A DNA stretch of 36,413 nt from the NCBI GenBank assembly GCA_017651515.1, contig JAGCCU010000004.1, positions 1 through 36,413 on the forward strand, given 5' to 3'. The DNA comes from Muribaculaceae bacterium. Lineage in GTDB: Bacteria > Bacteroidota > Bacteroidia > Bacteroidales > Muribaculaceae. Position numbers and translations under genes: made by a program. This document shows positions 21,910-36,413 of the stretch, piece after piece. Every line of letters starts with the position of its first letter. Positions within the stretch are counted from its first letter, which is position 1. A model generated the notes under the pieces. The model was not told where the DNA came from, ran no database searches, and saw only the letters and a program-made list of their open reading frames with translations.

Positions 21910-22190
21910 ATTGACAGGCAAGAGCCAGTGTCCAAGGTTGGCACCGGCTCTTGTGATGGGAAAACCACATCAAAGGGATGTGATGAAACTCCGAAATAGT
22001 AAGGATTTGAGGGCTTCAGGTCTTTGTAATCCTCCGGTCCATTGCTGGAACACCTTGCGGTCGAGGCCCGCCATTGACATGAAAGCGTATCTCGGTATTT
22101 CTAATAAAAAATGAAGAGTATCCCGATCGTCTTTGATGTGGCATTATGTGTTAGAACTACAAATTACAGAATCACTTTCTTGTGAATCTG
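21910..22190 (-). ncRNA. Candidate structured non-coding RNA
   Basis: No credible gene lies between DUF1599 and dnaA, yet a strong promoter points into this stretch. Read on the minus strand, the predicted RNA starts with the hairpin CAGATTCAC/GTGATTCTG (one U-U mismatch). A 177-nt core follows, closed by a perfect 11-bp stem: CCACATCAAAG (22141-22131) with CTTTGATGTGG (21975-21965). Inside are CCGAGATA pairing with TATTTCGG, and helices capped by GCAA tetraloops (ACC-GCAA-GGT and TCCA-GCAA-TGGA). TTTTCCC follows the core, then a 12-bp stem CAAGAGCCGGTG/CACTGGCTCTTG. Core length and a long closing stem would suit a 6S-like (Bacteroidales-1) RNA, but I cannot confirm the family. It is not tmRNA, SRP RNA or RNase P RNA by their hallmark motifs. 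Confidence 0.5.
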
Positions 22191-25416: not shown

Positions 25417-25491
25417 CGGGATGTAGCTCAGTCCGGTTAGAGTACGCGTCTGGGGGGCGTGGGGTCGCTAGTTCGAATCTAGTCATCCCGA
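25417..25491 (+). tRNA. tRNA-Pro (anticodon GGG)
   Basis: The cloverleaf is complete. The acceptor stem is CGGGATG (25417-25423) with CATCCCG (25484-25490) and discriminator A25491. The D arm is GCTC/GAGT. The anticodon stem has loop CTGGGGG with GGG at 25452-25454. The T loop is TTCGAAT. No CCA is encoded. It has its own promoter and terminator. It is the last chromosomal gene before the integrase, and its 3' end is the likely integration site. Confidence 0.95.
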
Positions 25492-25707: not shown

Positions 25708-26952
25708 ATGGCAAACAGCAGGTTTTATCTTGACGAGCGCAAAACAAAAGCCGGCAATCCTTGTGTGCTTAAAATAGGCATTGCTCACAAGAAGATGTCC
25801 GCTTTCATCTCTCTTGATGTCAAGCTTCTCCCTAATCAGTGGGATGGAACGAGAATGCGAGTGGTCAATCATCCCGACCAGATGCTTATGAATGTCTATA
25901 TTACTGGTGTCAAGCAGCAAGTAGACACTATCATCTTAACTTTAGCAAATGAGGGAAAGCTAGGTTCTATGGGCACAGCCGAATTGAAGAACTATATTTA
26001 TTATCAGCTTAATCCCGAAAAAGCAGAGGTAAAAGAAGAAGCGAAACGCAAGGCGAATCTTTTCGCAACACGTTTCAAAAAGTTCGCCGAAAGTAGCGGA
26101 AAAAGAGAAAGTACAAAACGCTTATATAATGACACATATAAGCGAATGTATGAGTTTGCTGGAGAATCGCTTGAACAAATGACTTTTGAAGACGTAACCA
26201 AAGATTGGCTCCTTGACTTCTACGCCTATCTAGAGCCCCAATCGCCATCACGAAATGCACGGAACATTCACCTGCGTAACATTCGTGCCGTGTTCAACGA
26301 AGCGATTGATGATGAGATTACTACGGCATACCCGTTTCGCCGTTTACAGATAAAGAATGAGGCTACACGAAAGCGTAACTTAAAAGTTGAGGATTTCCGA
26401 AAGTTTATCAATTTCCCATGTGAGAAACACGCGCAGCAGTATCTTGATATGTTCAAACTGATGTTCATGCTGCTGGGTATCAATGCCATCGACCTCTGCA
26501 ACTTGAAGGAGATTGATAGCGAAGGCCGTATCAATTTCCATCGAGCAAAGACCAACCGCCTTTATTCAATAAAGGTGGAGCCGGAAGCCCTTGAAATCAT
26601 CAACAAGTATCGTGGCGAGAAATGGCTGCTCAACATTCTCGACCGCTACAATGATTACAAGGACTACACGAAGCGAATGAATCGAGCGTTGAAAAAGATT
26701 GGCCCGGTAAAGCGAGTTGGTCGAGGTGGGAAAAAGGTTTACGAACCGCTATTCCCCGAAGTATCTACGTATTGGGCTCGTCACTCATGGGCCACTATTG
26801 CGGCCTCTCTTGACATACCTAGAGATACAATTGCCCATGCGCTGGGTCATGGTGGAAACACCGTGACTGACATCTATATAGACTTTGACGAGCGCAAAGT
26901 CGATGAAGCTAACCGCAAAGTGCTGGACTGGGTTTTATATGGTAAGCGATAA
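25708..26952 (+). CDS. Tyrosine recombinase (phage/ICE-type integrase)
   Basis: The protein has 414 residues from ATG 25708; a TTG at 25702 is less likely. It has an N-terminal arm-binding domain (about 1-100, beginning RFYLDERKTKAGNPC), a SAM-like core-binding domain (about 115-215) and a catalytic domain (about 225-414). Visible catalytic residues are Arg358 in WARHSWAT, His381 in ALGHGG and nucleophile Tyr390 in VTDIYIDFD. At the place of the first active-site arginine the motif reads LLGINAIDLCNL, with Asn259. Loss of Arg I is known for CTnDOT-type integrases, where another residue substitutes. It probably integrates into the adjacent tRNA-Pro 3' end. Confidence 0.92.
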   Translation: MANSRFYLDERKTKAGNPCVLKIGIAHKKMSAFISLDVKLLPNQWDGTRMRVVNHPDQMLMNVYITGVKQQVDTIILTLANEGKLGSMGTAELKNYIYYQLNPEKAEVKEEAKRKANLFATRFKKFAESSGKRESTKRLYNDTYKRMYEFAGESLEQMTFEDVTKDWLLDFYAYLEPQSPSRNARNIHLRNIRAVFNEAIDDEITTAYPFRRLQIKNEATRKRNLKVEDFRKFINFPCEKHAQQYLDMFKLMFMLLGINAIDLCNLKEIDSEGRINFHRAKTNRLYSIKVEPEALEIINKYRGEKWLLNILDRYNDYKDYTKRMNRALKKIGPVKRVGRGGKKVYEPLFPEVSTYWARHSWATIAASLDIPRDTIAHALGHGGNTVTDIYIDFDERKVDEANRKVLDWVLYGKR

Positions 26953-30114: not shown

Positions 30115-33100
30115 CTACTTGCGTTTATTCTTCGGTGATTTGTTGTTCATCAGCCGCTGGTAATCATCTTGGGCTTGCTTGATGCCGAGATCACCGGTCA
30201 CGGTGTTCACGGTGACGAAAGGTTCGTTGAGCCTTTCATTCAAGCGAGCGAGGGTCTCACGCAGGGCTTTGTTCTCTTGGACAATGACTGTCGGGGCCTG
30301 GGACTGCGCCAGTACTGCGGGAGCAGTAATCGTGCGGCTCACATCGGTCTGCCTCAGACTGCCGATTGTGTTTGTCCGCTGCGCATAGTCCAGCGCCTCG
30401 ATGAGCGGGCGAGCCACCGGCGAGGCGAGCAGTCGCTGCGAAGCCACCCACTCCCCTGCGTGAACCACACCTGCGACTTCATCGGCCCTGCCTTTCGGGG
30501 TGAAGCCGCCCTCGGCGTAGCCCTGCGCTTGCGAGGCTTGCTGCTGCTTCTTGATGGCTGCGACCTGCATCACGCCTGCGGCGACAGCCATAGCAGCGGC
30601 AATAGGTGCGATGATGTAGCCCACGACAGGAATGGCGGCAGCCGATGAGTAGGCGTTGAGGGCAGCCGTTGCCGTCTGCGCCACGGCTTGTATGACCTGC
30701 ATGGCGAACAGTTTGCGGTTCGCCTCATCCTTGACCTTTGCCACCTCTTTCTGCTTCTGCTTCTCCAGCTGCTTCGTCTTGTACTTGTTGCCCTCGGCCA
30801 TAGAGACCTCACGCTCGTAGCGTTTCTCGATGGCGGCAGTCTCAATCTCCATCTCCGACTGAACGAGTGTGGAGAGCTGCGAGAAGATGCTCGACATGCC
30901 CGATGTCAGTGCCTCGACGCTCTTGGTGACGGCTTGCCCGCCGTCGCCATTGAGCCAGTCGAGCAGATCCTGGTTCATCTTCTCCAGAGCGTTGCGGTCA
31001 GCCTCACCGCCGAGTTGGTTGTATTTCTTCTTCAGGGCGAGTTTCGCCTTTTCATAAGCCTCGTCGATGCGCAGCTTCTCTTTGGCGTTGTCGCCAGCCG
31101 CCTTAACCTCGGCTTGGTAGACTTCATCGAGGCTTGCCATAGCCGCATTGTACTGCTCGAGATTCTCGGCAGCGTTGTTGCCGAAGAACTCTTCCTTGAT
31201 GCGCTTTAGCTCCTCCTGGTGCTTGCGCTCCGCTTCCTCTGCCTTACGGGCTTTCTTCTGCTGGTCTTGCACCAGTTTGTCCTGATAGGCTGCTTCCGCT
31301 GCGAGGAAGTTGTTCCACGCCTGTTCGTCTACATTTGGCTTGTCGGCATAGTACGCCTCTTGCATGAGGTGCAGGTTCTCGCCGGCTTTGCCGTCGGTGG
31401 ACACATCCACGGCGATGACCAATCCTTTGTCATCGGCCTCGAGGATGTCCTCTGCACCCTGCAGCGTCTTGTAGACGTAATCTTTCAGTTCTTTCTCTGT
31501 AAGGACTGAGCCGTCGGGCAAGATGGGCGTGACAAGGATTTCACGGACTTGTCCTGTGGAGTCCTTGATGCCGTACTGCGAGGAGTACACCGTTGCGGTG
31601 GCCTCTCCCTCGGTCTGCGGATTGCCTTTCCATCCCGCCTTTGTCAGTTCGTGAGCGTCAATGACGGGACGGTTGAGCAGGTCTACGTTTCCGTTGAACT
31701 GCGTCTGCATCAACTCAGCGGCTTTCCGCTTGGTTTCTTCCCACTCGGTGACTGGCTTGAACGCCTGTTCACTGTAGATGTCTTGAATGGCTTTCAAATG
31801 CTCCAGCTCGATGCGCTGCATCTGCTCGTTGTAGGCTTCGGTGGAGAGCTGTCCGTCGATGTACTGTTGCTGCACTTCCGACTTGCGGAGTGCGTAGTAC
31901 TTCTTCTCGTCCTCGATGGACTGCTTGTTGGCGGCCTCCGTCCTCTTGCGCAGCACCTCGTAGAGCTGTGCCTCAATCGAGATGCGCTCGTTTGCCGAAA
32001 GATCTGCGTGAGCCAGTTGCTTTCGGTAGAACGCTTCCTCGATTTCCAACATCCTGTTGGTGTACTCCTCGTAATTCTTCTGACCTGTGGCGTAGGCGAT
32101 GCGGTTCAAGGCTTCCTGGTATTCTCGCCAGTCTTTCTCCGCCTTGAACTTGTCCTCGGTCTTCGAGGAGCCGCCACGTCCGCCACCTGTGCCGCCGCCG
32201 GCACCGCCGGGACTTCCCGCTGCTCCACCCGTGCCGCCAGTGGTGTCGAGGTTCATGCCTGTGGGGTCAGACTTGGCGGCACCACGGTATGCCAGTTCCT
32301 CACGGTACTGCGTGAGGAGCTGCTTGGCCTCTGACACCGACACTTCACGATACTCACCCTGCTGGGTGCCTTGTATGAAGATGATGGCGTTGCCCGCCTT
32401 TCCGTTCTTGACAATCTTCTCCAGCTGCCCGATGGTGCCTTTGAGGTAGTAGTTGTCTATGTGCCTCAAGGGAGAAACGCCGTCTTCCATCGCGTCCAGC
32501 GCTTCCATTCCTTTTCGGTGCGTCTCGTATGCATTATACATACGGTTGACGATGGGAGCCGGCTTTCGGCTGTCGCCGCCCCAGAAGGGGTGCTGGCTGC
32601 CGCCAATCCAGTCGGGCAGCAATCTCGCTTCAATGCCTTTAGAGTAAGCATTGATTCGGTTGACATAGTTCTGTGGAATGGGCTTGCCCGCCGCCATCGC
32701 CTGACTGACGGCAGCGACAATCTCTGCGGCCTCGCGTGTTGTCGCCCCCGCTTTTTCGAGCGCGGCTTGCAGGTCAGTCAAGCCCGATGCGAGCGACTTG
32801 TAATATTCCTGGTCAATCTGCTCACGTGCGGCAGCGATTCCTCTCTCCTGGGCAGAACGCCTCACCGCCAGCGTCAGTCGGTTGTAGGCGGCTTCGAGGT
32901 TGAGAATCTGCCCTTTCTCGTCAATCAGTCCGGATAGGTACTTTCCGTACTGGTTGATGATGGCGCGTTTCGCGTCCTCGTACTCTTTCGTGCCTTTCTG
33001 GGCACCTTTGAGGCGGCCAAAGAGGATGTCGAGCTCGTGCTGTTCTTTCACGGCCTCGGCATTGAAGCCCTTTGCGGCTTTGACCGCCTCGTTGGTCTTC

Positions 33101-34911
33101 TTGGTCAGCTCGTCCGTGCGTGTGCAGAGGTTGTACAGCCCCACGCCTACGGCAGTGACGGCAGCCAGGATGATGCCCCATGGTGTCGTCTTCGTGAGAA
33201 GGTGGAAAGCGGTGTATGCCGCTTTCGCCTTTTCTATCTGCCCAGTCATGGCGTAGAAGGCTATTTTCAGAGCCAGTGTTGCCGTGCCGAGCAACTTCTG
33301 CGCTCCCTCGGTCAGCACGAGCCAGTAATAGTGAGCCTTGAAGGCGACGTTGCTTGCGCTGACCGCCACCTTGTAGGCAATCCATGATGCCGTGAAGGTC
33401 ACGATCAATCCTTTGTATTGGACAAAGAAATTCACCAGCACATTCAGGAATCGCAGCATGGCGCTTCCGCTCGTCATGATGTGCTTGTACAGCGGCAGGA
33501 GTTTCTCTCCCAGCTCAATGGCGAGTTCGTGGATGTGCTTGCGTGCCTTGTCAATACCAGCCTGTGCCGTATTGTTGAAGATGTTGTACTCTCGGGTCGC
33601 CGACGTGGCTTCCTCAAAAGCCTTGTTCGCCTCTTTCTGCTCCCACTTCACCATGTCGAGGTGAGTGGCGAGCGTGGCGAGGACCTGGGACATGCGGATT
33701 CCGTCCATTCCCAAGTCCTTGAACAAGGGCGAGAGCGCGGCCAGAGCGTCAGCCTCGCCGATCTCCTGCAACTTGCCGAGGAACATCAGCACGCCTTCGT
33801 TGGTGCTGCGGTTCAGCGTCTCGGTGAACTTTGCCACGTCAAGCCCGACGGTCTTAGCCAGCTCCTGCGGCTTCTGGAACAACATCATGATCAACCTCGA
33901 CAAGGCGCTTGCCGACATCTCCACCTTCTGGCCGTTAGCGTCAAGGGTGGCAGCGAAAGCGAGTATTTCGGGGATTGTCATCCTCGCCTGTGCGCCCACA
34001 CCGGCCATGCGTTGGGCGAACTGCACGAGGTAGGGTTTCGCCGCGGTGCAGTTCTGCGAGAGGACATTCACCGTCGAACCGACGGCAAGCATGGCGTCTT
34101 TGGTGCCCAACATCTGCTCGACACCGAAGATGTTGGTGAGTTTTGCGATGACTTGGGTCGCTCCCTCGCCCAAGTCGACGAGCGCGACGTTGATGATGTC
34201 GGCCGCCTCGACATAGCCCTGCACGGACTCACGGGTGTTCTTGCCCAGTCGTCCTGCCTCCTGCGCCAGTTCGTTGAGTTTGTCACGCCCGGTTCGGGTG
34301 TCCATACTGCGGAACGACTCGTTCATCGCCACCACCTCGTCACGGGCCATGCCGGTGTACTTGATGTTGTTGGCGATTTCCTCCTCCATCTCGGCGTAGG
34401 AGTTCACCGCCTTGCGGCCAGCCATGACAAGGCCGGTGACCAGGGCGGCGATGCCCATGAGCGAGGTCTGCCAATCGTTGAGCTTACGATTGAAGCGGGT
34501 CCAGAACGACTCCTGCGTTCGGAGTTCCGCATTGACCTTTGCGAGTTCGGCTTTCACACGTTGGATTTTGGCCACGTGGGAGTTCCAAGCCGCAGAGCCG
34601 CGCTCCATGTACTCCAGCTGTCGGTTGAGTGTTTGGAGCGTCTTGTTCAGCTCTTTGGGCGTTGCCCTGTCGAGGCGCAGCATTACCCGCTCCACCTGCT
34701 GGGTGGCGGTCTCGATTTCCCTCATCTGCCTACGGGTGTCGCCGAGTTCACGGCGCAGTTTCCGAAGCTCCACCTTGTTTCCTGCCATAGCCGCTTTAGC
34801 GATGGCATTCTCAAGTTCCATGGCACGCTGCTTCAGCTGCTGCAGGACTTGAAGTGGTTGCTGACCATTCACGGTCAGGTTGACGGTTGCTTGACTGTTT
34901 ATGTTGCTCAT
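30115..34911 (-). CDS. Phage tail tape measure protein (TP901 type)
   Basis: This 1598-residue protein sets tail length and is ejected with the DNA. Residues 1-130 are coiled coil. The TP901 core (about 160-420) has YAEMEEEIANN, LNELAQEAGRLGKN and further conserved helices. Hydrophobic stretches occur at about 500-600 and 1407-1443. A Gly-rich linker lies at about 890-917, followed by long coiled coils (about 920-1065 and 1205-1400). A compact alpha/beta segment (about 1070-1195, with DLLNRPVIDAHEL and GLVIAVDVSTDGK) is nested between the coils. The end GYAEGGFTPKGR, then VAGVVHAGEWVA, is typical of Bacteroidales tape measures. No tail-chaperone genes are seen directly upstream. Confidence 0.92.
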   Translation of the reverse strand: MSNINSQATVNLTVNGQQPLQVLQQLKQRAMELENAIAKAAMAGNKVELRKLRRELGDTRRQMREIETATQQVERVMLRLDRATPKELNKTLQTLNRQLEYMERGSAAWNSHVAKIQRVKAELAKVNAELRTQESFWTRFNRKLNDWQTSLMGIAALVTGLVMAGRKAVNSYAEMEEEIANNIKYTGMARDEVVAMNESFRSMDTRTGRDKLNELAQEAGRLGKNTRESVQGYVEAADIINVALVDLGEGATQVIAKLTNIFGVEQMLGTKDAMLAVGSTVNVLSQNCTAAKPYLVQFAQRMAGVGAQARMTIPEILAFAATLDANGQKVEMSASALSRLIMMLFQKPQELAKTVGLDVAKFTETLNRSTNEGVLMFLGKLQEIGEADALAALSPLFKDLGMDGIRMSQVLATLATHLDMVKWEQKEANKAFEEATSATREYNIFNNTAQAGIDKARKHIHELAIELGEKLLPLYKHIMTSGSAMLRFLNVLVNFFVQYKGLIVTFTASWIAYKVAVSASNVAFKAHYYWLVLTEGAQKLLGTATLALKIAFYAMTGQIEKAKAAYTAFHLLTKTTPWGIILAAVTAVGVGLYNLCTRTDELTKKTNEAVKAAKGFNAEAVKEQHELDILFGRLKGAQKGTKEYEDAKRAIINQYGKYLSGLIDEKGQILNLEAAYNRLTLAVRRSAQERGIAAAREQIDQEYYKSLASGLTDLQAALEKAGATTREAAEIVAAVSQAMAAGKPIPQNYVNRINAYSKGIEARLLPDWIGGSQHPFWGGDSRKPAPIVNRMYNAYETHRKGMEALDAMEDGVSPLRHIDNYYLKGTIGQLEKIVKNGKAGNAIIFIQGTQQGEYREVSVSEAKQLLTQYREELAYRGAAKSDPTGMNLDTTGGTGGAAGSPGGAGGGTGGGRGGSSKTEDKFKAEKDWREYQEALNRIAYATGQKNYEEYTNRMLEIEEAFYRKQLAHADLSANERISIEAQLYEVLRKRTEAANKQSIEDEKKYYALRKSEVQQQYIDGQLSTEAYNEQMQRIELEHLKAIQDIYSEQAFKPVTEWEETKRKAAELMQTQFNGNVDLLNRPVIDAHELTKAGWKGNPQTEGEATATVYSSQYGIKDSTGQVREILVTPILPDGSVLTEKELKDYVYKTLQGAEDILEADDKGLVIAVDVSTDGKAGENLHLMQEAYYADKPNVDEQAWNNFLAAEAAYQDKLVQDQQKKARKAEEAERKHQEELKRIKEEFFGNNAAENLEQYNAAMASLDEVYQAEVKAAGDNAKEKLRIDEAYEKAKLALKKKYNQLGGEADRNALEKMNQDLLDWLNGDGGQAVTKSVEALTSGMSSIFSQLSTLVQSEMEIETAAIEKRYEREVSMAEGNKYKTKQLEKQKQKEVAKVKDEANRKLFAMQVIQAVAQTATAALNAYSSAAAIPVVGYIIAPIAAAMAVAAGVMQVAAIKKQQQASQAQGYAEGGFTPKGRADEVAGVVHAGEWVASQRLLASPVARPLIEALDYAQRTNTIGSLRQTDVSRTITAPAVLAQSQAPTVIVQENKALRETLARLNERLNEPFVTVNTVTGDLGIKQAQDDYQRLMNNKSPKNKRK

Positions 34912-34939
34912 ATTCGATGTGAATTTGTCGTTATAGGCA

Positions 34940-34947
34940 CAAAATTA
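34940..34947 (-). promoter_or_regulatory. Tape-measure gene promoter -7 box
   Basis: The minus strand reads TAATTTTG (TAnnTTTG), about 22-29 nt before ATG 34911; the -33 position holds TTTT. Just upstream lies a small perfect repeat, CTCGCC-GACA-GGCGAG (34983-34998), that could be an operator. Between it and 35139 I see nothing. Confidence 0.45.
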
Positions 34948-35139
34948 CTTTTGTCTATACAGCCTATAAAAGACATTGCCGACTCGCCGACAGGCGAGCG
35001 ATTTTTGTAGAAAAACTGCTTGCAGACCTCAAGTTGTCGCCATGAAACAATAATATACAAAATAGTTCAAAATGCGACATGGCGTAAAAATACTTATATC
35101 AGCAAGTTATATAAAGCAATTTGAGGTCAGTTTTTCAAA

Positions 35140-35193
35140 CTTTTTCAATTTGTTAAGGATTGAAAAAGTCAAAAGGCTGTGTAACAGCCTTTT
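35140..35193 (-). terminator. Two tandem terminator-like hairpins
   Basis: Hairpin 1 is AAAAGGCTG/CAGCCTTTT (35171-35179/35185-35193), followed on the minus strand by GACTTTTTC. Hairpin 2 is CTTTTTCAAT/ATTGAAAAAG (35140-35149/35159-35168). They separate the hairpin-rich segment on the right from the tape-measure gene. Hairpin 1 also has TTTTCTT on the plus side, so direction is not certain. Confidence 0.55.
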
Positions 35194-35518
35194 CTTGGGT
35201 TCGGGGCTTCGCCCCGATGCAGTCTGCAAAGACCCCCCGACCGCCCTACGGAGCGATTTAGAAACTCGCCTTTTCGCCCGAGCGGAATGTGCGGTAAAAT
35301 CGCCAATGTGAGCCGATGAACCGAAAGGCACTTTCGGTTTCGGCGGCCCACTTTGGCTTCCGCTTTTGCCGAGATTTTCGGCTCGCCGAAAATCGTGTGA
35401 CGAAATCGTGCCTCGGACTCGCTTCAAGGCTTGATTTCGTGATTAGGCGATGTCGATGGGCGGTGAAGCGTAGGCAAGGTAGCAAGCGAATGATGAACGA
35501 GAGTGTGTGCCGGTGAGC

Positions 35519-35661
35519 CATAGGCGTTGACCAACGACTTGTCGAGCATTGGGCTTGTGGCGATTGTCGAATTGGGGTTGGAGCGCAGCGCATACCCCAA
35601 TGTACTCGAACAAGCAGAGCGAGCCGTATGCGCTTGGGAAACGCCGTCAATAGTGAGCCGA
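35519..35661. repeat. Structured module, copy A
   Basis: Block 1 (35519-35557) and block 2 (35621-35661) recur in copy B at 38/39 and 41/41 identity. The 63 bp between them are unlike copy B but form their own hairpin: ATTGGGGT pairs with ACCCCAAT, outside it TCGA with TCGA, and outside that GCTTGT with ACAAGC. GGCGTT in block 1 can pair with AACGCC in block 2, closing the module. Confidence 0.75.
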
Positions 35662-36057
35662 GAACCGCAGGTGTTCACACTTTCTCGACTGATTGAGCGC
35701 GACGGACGCAGCCGTAGCGGAACTGCCCAACAACATCGGGGGCTGCGGGTGGGACATTAGACGATGTGTTCACACCTCTCTGCCCGAATAGGCACTTGTT
35801 GGCGTGGGTAGCGACTGGAGAAAAAAGTGAGAGTGAAACGAGCCGCAGATTGGCGGCAGTGTGGTGCGAGTGGCCTTTCCCCTAGACCGGCGCAAACGCT
35901 TTTGCGCATAACGAAGAACCATATAGTAGCGCGTGCGGCTCACCGCCGGCGACCGACCGCAGGGCGGTTTGCCGACAGTCAGGCAGGAACTCGTCTTCCT
36001 GCGAGCCGCTTGGACTGGGCAAATGTAGTGAAAGCGAATGAGTGTGTACAGGCTCAC

Positions 36058-36198
36058 CATAGGCGTTGAGCAACGACTTGTCGAGCATTGGGCTTGCGGA
36101 GTGACTAGCGTCGGGTGTCAGCGGAACTTGTGAAGCCGATACCCGATGCAGCGTAGTGAGCCGTATGCGCTTGGGAAACGCCGTCAATAGTGAGCCGA
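36058..36198. repeat. Structured module, copy B
   Basis: Same two blocks as copy A (36058-36096 and 36158-36198), 539 bp further on. The 61-bp middle differs in sequence but again forms a hairpin: TCGGGT pairs with ACCCGA, and GGCTTGC with GTGAGCC using wobble pairs. An extra outer stem, GGCTCAC (36051-36057) with GTGAGCC (36190-36196), closes it. Copy A has the reverse complement of GGCTCACC at the matching place. Confidence 0.75.
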
Positions 36199-36413
36199 TA
36201 GCCGAAGGCGGTACACTTTCAGCAGCGCAGTGGAGTGCAGAACAGTCCAACCTGCGCCACGATTGATGAGCGGTAAGGCGCGAAGCACATAACGCAAACA
36301 ACCGCAGCGCAGCGGAGGTTGGCTTGCGTGTGAAGGCTGCCGCTTGCAAGGACACCCCATAAGCGCAGTCTTGGGGTGTCCCTGCAAGCACGAGGTCAGC
36401 CTGTTGTGCCTTG

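Follow-up and report, generated by a model that had tools for sequence, protein, structure and literature searches.

A putative family of large structured non-coding RNAs beside the tape-measure gene in phages of gut and rumen Bacteroidales

To our knowledge, few large ornate RNAs have been found in phages. The GOLLD cage is a 14-mer and ROOL forms a homo-oligomeric nanocage. HEARO, also a large structured bacterial RNA, is associated with an HNH endonuclease gene. ROOL and GOLLD are described as RNAs of prophages and phages with unsettled function, often lying near tRNA islands and forming RNA cages; the 3′ part of GOLLD is conserved and the 5′ part less so, its expression rises in lysis, and OLE is listed as a large structured bacterial RNA (PMC12286853). 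The most abundant transcript of phage ICP1 is a non-coding RNA of ∼800 nt from an orf-less gap of ∼1 kb where the lysis cluster begins, and abundant non-coding RNA is produced by the PLE satellites too (PMC7567579).

The element examined here lies near the right-hand end of the window, meaning the whole stretch of 36,413 nt from a Muribaculaceae bacterium that was analysed. Like GOLLD (PMC12286853), it appears to be a large structured RNA of prophages and phages. However, both of its ends are conserved, its body is variable and it occupies a slot between tape-measure and lysis genes. The siting of GOLLD near tRNA islands is not shared, as only one of 21 loci (L082) has an array of 18 tRNA genes within 4 kb and the rest have 0–4 tRNA genes. 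With ROOL (PMC12286853) it would share the character of a large multi-helix phage RNA without a known protein partner, but it has no Rfam match and a different context. The ICP1 transcript is similar in its orf-less gap of ∼1 kb beside lysis genes and its RNA-making satellites (PMC7567579), but ICP1 is a Vibrio phage, and the RNA of the present element is a predicted one. HEARO and OLE are comparable as large structured bacterial RNAs and differ in that the element lacks an Rfam match. No HNH endonuclease gene was seen among the proteins scanned, which made up a minority of the neighbours.

The Rfam comparison proposed in the first-pass annotation, which knew of no named element of this type, gave no match to GOLLD, ROOL, HEARO or any other family. 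Within the element no family, OLE included, reached its gathering score, and GOLLD, ROOL and HEARO were absent from the whole window at gathering score, as well as at E values up to 5 in 34900–36413 and up to 3 in eight relatives. LOOT RNA (RF03000) gave a full-length sub-threshold alignment on the leader (19.5 bits where 46.4 are needed, E 0.63); it was absent at E values up to 3 in the eight relatives and was treated as chance. Of the features that loosely define large structured phage RNAs, compensatory multi-helix structure and the absence of coding constraint were both found. The element thus resembles GOLLD, ROOL and the ICP1 transcript in kind, by analogy, while homology or membership is not supported by the tests run. 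The literature searched, in which subscription journals and preprints are thinly covered, yielded no description of a large RNA located in Bacteroidales phages between the tape-measure gene and the lysis genes. A fragment of the family could be among the candidates of 27–219 bp from human microbiomes in PMC8040213. As far as we have searched, the sequences seem to represent an undescribed phage family with a large selected RNA structure.

Organisation of the element and its repeated module

The first-pass annotation had reported a two-copy module at 35519–36198 in which two blocks are nearly invariant and the stretch between them is not. The two block pairs do agree at 79 of 80 positions, the single C/G difference lying in block 1 and block 2 being identical, and repeat detection returned the same copies with 86–87% identity over 60–69 nt. 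On the + strand, sequence and repeat search place block 1 of copy A (39 bp) at 35519–35557 and its block 2 (41 bp) at 35621–35661, with the 39-bp and 41-bp blocks of copy B at 36058–36096 and 36158–36198. Single-sequence folding predicts a variable apical hairpin in each middle, of 63 bp in A (35558–35620) and 61 bp in B (36097–36157), with the equivalent stems ATTGGGGT/ACCCCAAT in A and TCGGGT/ACCCGA in B that had been proposed. The further proposal that the blocks pair with each other through GGCGTT/AACGCC was upheld for copy A and for relatives. Copy B, when folded to minimum energy, favours a competing stem in which GGCTCAC, lying upstream, binds GTGAGCC in block 2. Single-sequence z-scores over six modules were modest (−1.2 to −3.0). 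Given this competing fold and these scores, proof of structure must come from comparison rather than from folding.

With their flanks the blocks make up module A, a three-way-junction subdomain (35505–35665, + strand), and module B (36044–36202, + strand), which score 171 and 172 bits with the covariance model R1, having themselves been among its seeds. The interval first marked takes in no more than a portion of the element, which runs from ∼35171 to beyond the contig end at 36413 and so spans at least 1.2 kb of non-coding DNA. Modules A and B are duplicated subdomains of this far larger non-coding element.

Its parts are given here for the + strand. The leader begins with a 10-bp perfect hairpin, AAAAGGCTGT-GTA-ACAGCCTTTT (35171–35193), and a second hairpin, CGGGGC-TTC-GCCCCG (35202–35216), identified from sequence and with other arms in the equivalents of relatives. 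There follow a C-box, GACCCCCCGACCGCCCTACGGAG (35231–35253), which is conserved across the wider phage family, and a leader domain, GCGGAATG...TTCCGC (35282–35363), whose inner hairpins were recognised by eye from the sequence and its relatives. The core (35446–35753) is closed by a long-range helix, helix 1 of alignment A3, and has the G-box at its end. The closing helix pairs 35446–35461 with 35725–35738 and is imperfect in the window, while relatives have up to 14 bp of perfect pairing; 97.9% of the cells of A3 helix 1 are paired, although the window core, of the 308-nt class, is outside the 27 rows of that alignment. The G-box CGGGGGCTGCGGGTGGG (35737–35753), recognised from sequence and relatives, marks the 3′ end of the core. 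Beyond it lies an extension (35754–36413) bearing module B and cut by the contig end, as judged by comparison with the copy in genome G015, which is 97% identical and runs ∼230 nt further to a GGGCGGGTTTGTGGGG motif. An inverted repeat with 94% complementarity forms a potential 18-bp hairpin near the contig end (36342–36389).

In the relatives that were fetched, the module is found within a non-coding element of about 0.9–1.6 kb with a common plan. The leader starts with a single hairpin or a pair of them and also contains a C-box of the type GACCCCCCGACCGCCCT, the sequence GCGGAATRTG and a domain of hairpins; the core opens with GGCGATG, closes with its complement and is followed by a G-box, GGGG..GGGTGGG, and within it several junction subdomains succeed one another, the duplicated module among them; and elements of the window type carry a second module in an extension after the core. 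Versions range in size from ∼0.5 kb (L138) to ∼1.6 kb (G015). In 48 of 50 elements, compared with 8% of mononucleotide shuffles, the 70 nt preceding the C-box contain a perfect hairpin with a stem of 6 bp or more. Across the 50 elements these stems have 27 different arms, many of the viral arms being identical.

Five rows of A3, from two classes (L067 and L068; L085, L086 and L090), share an insert of ∼75 nt at one joint, and G035b has it too, a pattern suggesting that subdomains have been exchanged. Such folded segments, whether duplicated or inserted at a common joint across classes, amount to a natural experiment in the evolution of large RNAs. By eye, the bodies of L104, L140 and L152 contain arrays of diverged repeats such as CGATAGTCTCACGATG... 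and AAAGGGTTTCTAATCTC.... In L078 (G101) three ORFs of 399, 318 and 351 aa lie directly upstream of the element and the leader lacks its first part, as though truncated by an insertion; the last of these ORFs looks recombinase-like at its end.

Covariation and coding potential

The first-pass annotation saw in the two copies the signature of a selected structure. In the module alignment, which was fitted to the R1 model, 51 matches gave 49 distinct rows, and 90.1% of cells formed standard pairs against 75.7% in shuffled alignments. Changes on both sides were found at 25 of 28 pairs, compared with 12.8 in the shuffles, and slid versions of the alignment were 32–44% paired. Covariation in a broad alignment thus agrees with the claim. 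Because this alignment was fitted to its own model, the core provides the cleaner test.

Alignment A3 comprises 27 cores aligned with MAFFT on sequence only, from which RNAalifold predicted 97 pairs in 21 helices. These include the long-range closure (columns 3–10 with 713–720), a second long-range helix (82–94 with 572–585) and the module. The paired fraction was 95.6% of cells against 83.9% when shuffled, two-sided changes occurred at 54 of the 97 pairs against 33.9, and the covariation score was 0.364 against 0.168, values which are favoured by predicting the pairs on the same alignment and which relatedness alone can raise above shuffles. None of 500 shuffles reached the paired fraction, the two-sided count or the covariation score. 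The weakest measure was the count of further pair types, 107 against 98.7, which 2 of 500 shuffles reached. Slid versions of the core alignment were 33–44% paired, with a maximum of 43.5%. The core comparison therefore also supports a selected structure.

It had been argued that the 2-bp difference in length between the middles puts the blocks out of frame with each other, so that protein coding could not explain the conservation. The offset is real (63 versus 61 bp). ORFs do recur on the − strand (cluster c0, 23 ORFs by blastp; cluster c3, 9 ORFs), and one − strand frame is open in 7 of 13 class II cores. In a sample of 16 class II elements, pN/pS was 0.97 for the recurrent − strand ORF and 0.84–1.11 for the other five frames. 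Variable sites were distributed 35/33/25 over the codon positions, and 13 of 14 gap runs relative to G119 were not multiples of three. With pN/pS near 1 in the c0 frame and gaps out of frame, protein coding was rejected, and we conclude from these comparisons that the element contains no protein under selection.

An ORF of 137 aa (MMEIRKIEKSDLVLFPRLQ... or close to it) was noted on the opposite strand inside the phage element at L114:4495–4908 and in L127 and L133. Directly upstream of it, at L114:4904–5014 on the − strand, is a match to the SAM-I-IV riboswitch (57.4 bits).

Carriers and gene neighbours

The window element lies, as first proposed, in a prophage beside the tape-measure gene. 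A tRNA-Pro(GGG) gene at 25417–25491 (+ strand; Rfam/ARAGORN) is probably the attachment site, with no att repeat for the prophage found at this tRNA within the sequence examined, and a tyrosine integrase gene follows at 25708–26952 (+ strand; PF13102, PF17293, phrog_1). The tape-measure gene (30115–34911, − strand; PF10145 and the PHROG tail length tape measure) has its start codon facing the RNA element. To the left of the prophage, at 21957–22143 on the − strand, there is a match of 104 bits to Bacteroidales-1 RNA, for which Rfam suggests 6S.

When 61 genomes (that of the window and those of relatives) were searched with 35440–36413, 16 had matches, and every one of the 16 belonged to the host genus. 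Model R1, built from nine modules, matched 33 of the 101 genomes examined from that genus, none of five sampled genomes from other genera of the family, and one of 393 genomes sampled across the order, namely that of the window itself. The leader pattern gave 2 of 393 in the order sample, equal to the reversed control. Phage and plasmid records contained no relatives of the window element, and phages none of the L114 element; the phage matches of a further query were mostly to endolysin or amidase genes because that query lay mostly beyond the element.

Viral contigs in IMG/VR extended the family. The tape-measure protein of the window found three contigs there, two of which (L102 and L103) bear the module, the leader pattern found 10 contigs, and relatives of the L114 tape-measure protein gave 31 loci. 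The exact block pattern and the rumen-type core pattern each had no matches in viral contigs. Of the 31 loci, 23 extend 1.9 kb or more beyond the start of the tape-measure gene on its upstream side. Several of these 23 are near-duplicates, and the element was recognisable in 20: 16 have the C-box and GCGGAATATG, one mismatch being allowed, 50–53 nt apart, L150 and L143 were recognised by eye, and L149 and L154 by R1. When 10 contigs already known (nine from the leader pattern and one from the search with the window tape-measure protein) were removed, 12 of 13 had the element. No recognisable element was seen at the slot in L144, L145 and L153. The contigs of the first two carry the leader elsewhere, as loci L107, beside lysis-type genes, and L105, an R1 match with E 2.4e-4. 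Some IMG/VR names start with an isolate genome number, from which we take it that apparent members, such as L126–L129 and L133–L134, occur in prophages of isolate genomes.

Outside the host genus R1 matched only 3 of 28 wider loci, indicating that bodies there are mostly different sequences built on the same plan. Boxes of the form GCAGGGGnnTG..GGG in L104, L108, L110, L113 and L114 resemble CGGGGGCTGCGGGTGGG of the window, and the strict G-box pattern was found in only part of these outer loci. Since the bodies mostly cannot be aligned, the link beyond the genus consists of the leader, the G-box, the slot and the plan.

Within the host genus the tape-measure cluster c1 adjoins 11 of 39 elements, as it does in L102 and L103. 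Seven of these 11 have cluster c2 on the opposite side, all on the − strand; of the other four, G000 and G012a stop within the element, and different genes stand there in G035 and G077. The c2 product is a small membrane protein that resembles spanins in appearance only, and cluster c11 beside it is an endolysin (phrog_435). The carriers are thus phages of gut and rumen Bacteroidales, in several lineages, with the element in the slot between tape-measure and lysis genes.

Further copies are on loci here called tRNA-anchored islands, whose status as phage satellites is putative. These elements lie 3′ of + strand genes for DUF3987 (PF13148) and PriCT_2/BT4734-like proteins (PF08707, PF08800), and some follow + strand ORFs with the look of a DnaC-type loader. 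In the islands read, the element stood behind replication-type + strand genes and no tape-measure gene was present in the stretch. A tRNA-Leu(GAG) gene was present in the stretch at 9 of 21 scanned loci. No attachment-site repeats were found at 15 tRNAs in the stretches examined. Copies on phages and islands were compared for signs of concerted evolution and none was seen: five pairs from the same genome are 79–95% identical, and in the three pairs checked the nearest relative was a copy from another genome and not the partner.

The array of 18 tRNA genes mentioned above (L082:2453–3968) is ∼2–4 kb downstream of the element in G025. It is whole only in that genome, pieces occur in other genomes of the genus, and G034, G081, G107 and G122 have many short matches to it, which suggests a mobile tRNA array. 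Its position beside one element was taken as incidental.

Strand and possible function

The first-pass annotation left open whether the structure was one of RNA or DNA. For the cores the consensus energy was −79.2 on the + strand and −51.9 on the − strand, and the single-sequence energy was lower on the + strand in 27 of 27. Double changes from one Watson–Crick pair to another occurred at 28 of 58 pairs predicted on the + strand only, compared with 7 of 24 on the − strand only, 39 pairs being common to both predictions. Five aligned Prevotella-type bodies gave −131.7 on the + strand and −113.1 on the − strand. At the predicted + strand pairs the core had 252 G.U cells against 22 A.C (252 of 2586 counted cells being G.U) and the module 84 against 5, counts which overstate the evidence for strand because the prediction of the pairs had itself used the + strand. 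A fairer test took the 49 pairs that both strands yield when G.U is disallowed in the prediction, and gave 24 G.U against 14 A.C. As this strand-neutral test is weak, the call rests on the energies and the plus-only pairs, which narrow the choice towards RNA from the + strand; this is favoured but not proven.

In temperate Bacteroidales siphophages the element thus probably encodes a large structured non-coding RNA of modular build, read from the + strand, opposite to the flanking tape-measure and lysis genes, and acting late in trans. A promoter of its own, placed before the tape-measure gene, would drive its transcription, and the RNA would accumulate late in infection and act in trans, by a structural or a sequestering role, in virion assembly or lysis. 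The late role in trans is drawn from analogy with GOLLD, ROOL and the abundant lysis-side transcript of ICP1, and on this analogy a trans-acting late structural RNA is the most likely form.

An element acting in cis on the late operon would be either a control region on the − strand for processing, translation or transcription, or a + strand antisense RNA or collision damper. Where both neighbours are seen they lie on the − strand, which means that transcripts of the late operon would run through the gap, and the − strand folds too. Nevertheless the + strand folds better in every core and has more covarying private pairs, the island copies lie behind + strand genes of replication type with no tape-measure gene in the stretch, and the length and modular complexity would exceed what a cis spacer needs. 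We therefore regard a role in cis as unlikely.

We give equally little credence to an extended form of the trans-acting RNA. This would be a giant-RNA family common to Bacteroidales phages and to islands resembling phage parasites, rebuilt by subdomain swaps, in which the chain of junction modules is closed like a ring by the end-to-end helix. Such an RNA may self-assemble into an RNA-only late particle, and the look-alikes from islands might join or disturb helper assembly or lysis.

A site acting as DNA, whether a replication origin, packaging site or recombination hot spot with hairpins in single strands, is quite improbable. GNA triloops, which are stable in DNA, number 20 against 8.7 expected on the + strand of 13 related cores, that of the window (35446–35753) included. 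Of the 20, 17 are GCA; the enrichment is about twofold over shuffles and confined to that strand, and GNRA tetraloops are not enriched in the same cores, a pattern that would fit a role as single-stranded DNA. The presence of the element in phages and in islands with PF08707 and PF13148 genes, and the insert at one joint in several elements, would suit such a site. On the other side, the G.U pairs, about one in ten of the counted cells even if biased upwards by prediction on the + strand, are usual in RNA but costly in DNA hairpins, and long-range helices over ∼550 nt with compensations are RNA-like.

A mobile, MITE-like non-coding element or a repeat assembly artefact with structure as a by-product is very improbable: 12 of 36 elements are within 1.6 kb of a contig end, as assembly repeats would cause, and several genomes have two copies, but the slot recurs in distant phages with compensatory changes, the one-contig genome G062 has a full-looking element, and a search for repeats of tRNA ends gave none.

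For the favoured trans-acting RNA, the recurring slot and the apparent members in isolate prophages would make induction, RNA-seq and deletion feasible in a gut anaerobe that grows in culture. Phages of the Prevotella type have, between the leader and the start of the tape-measure gene, a palindrome-like sequence, AATAGTTA-AGTTAA-TAACTATT, with varying arms, which was seen ∼120–140 nt before GCGGAATATG in L111, L113 and L114 and also in L104, L108 and L112. Many rumen-type elements have GTAAAAATACnTATATCAGCAAGTTA in its place. Either site is a possible candidate for a promoter or operator.
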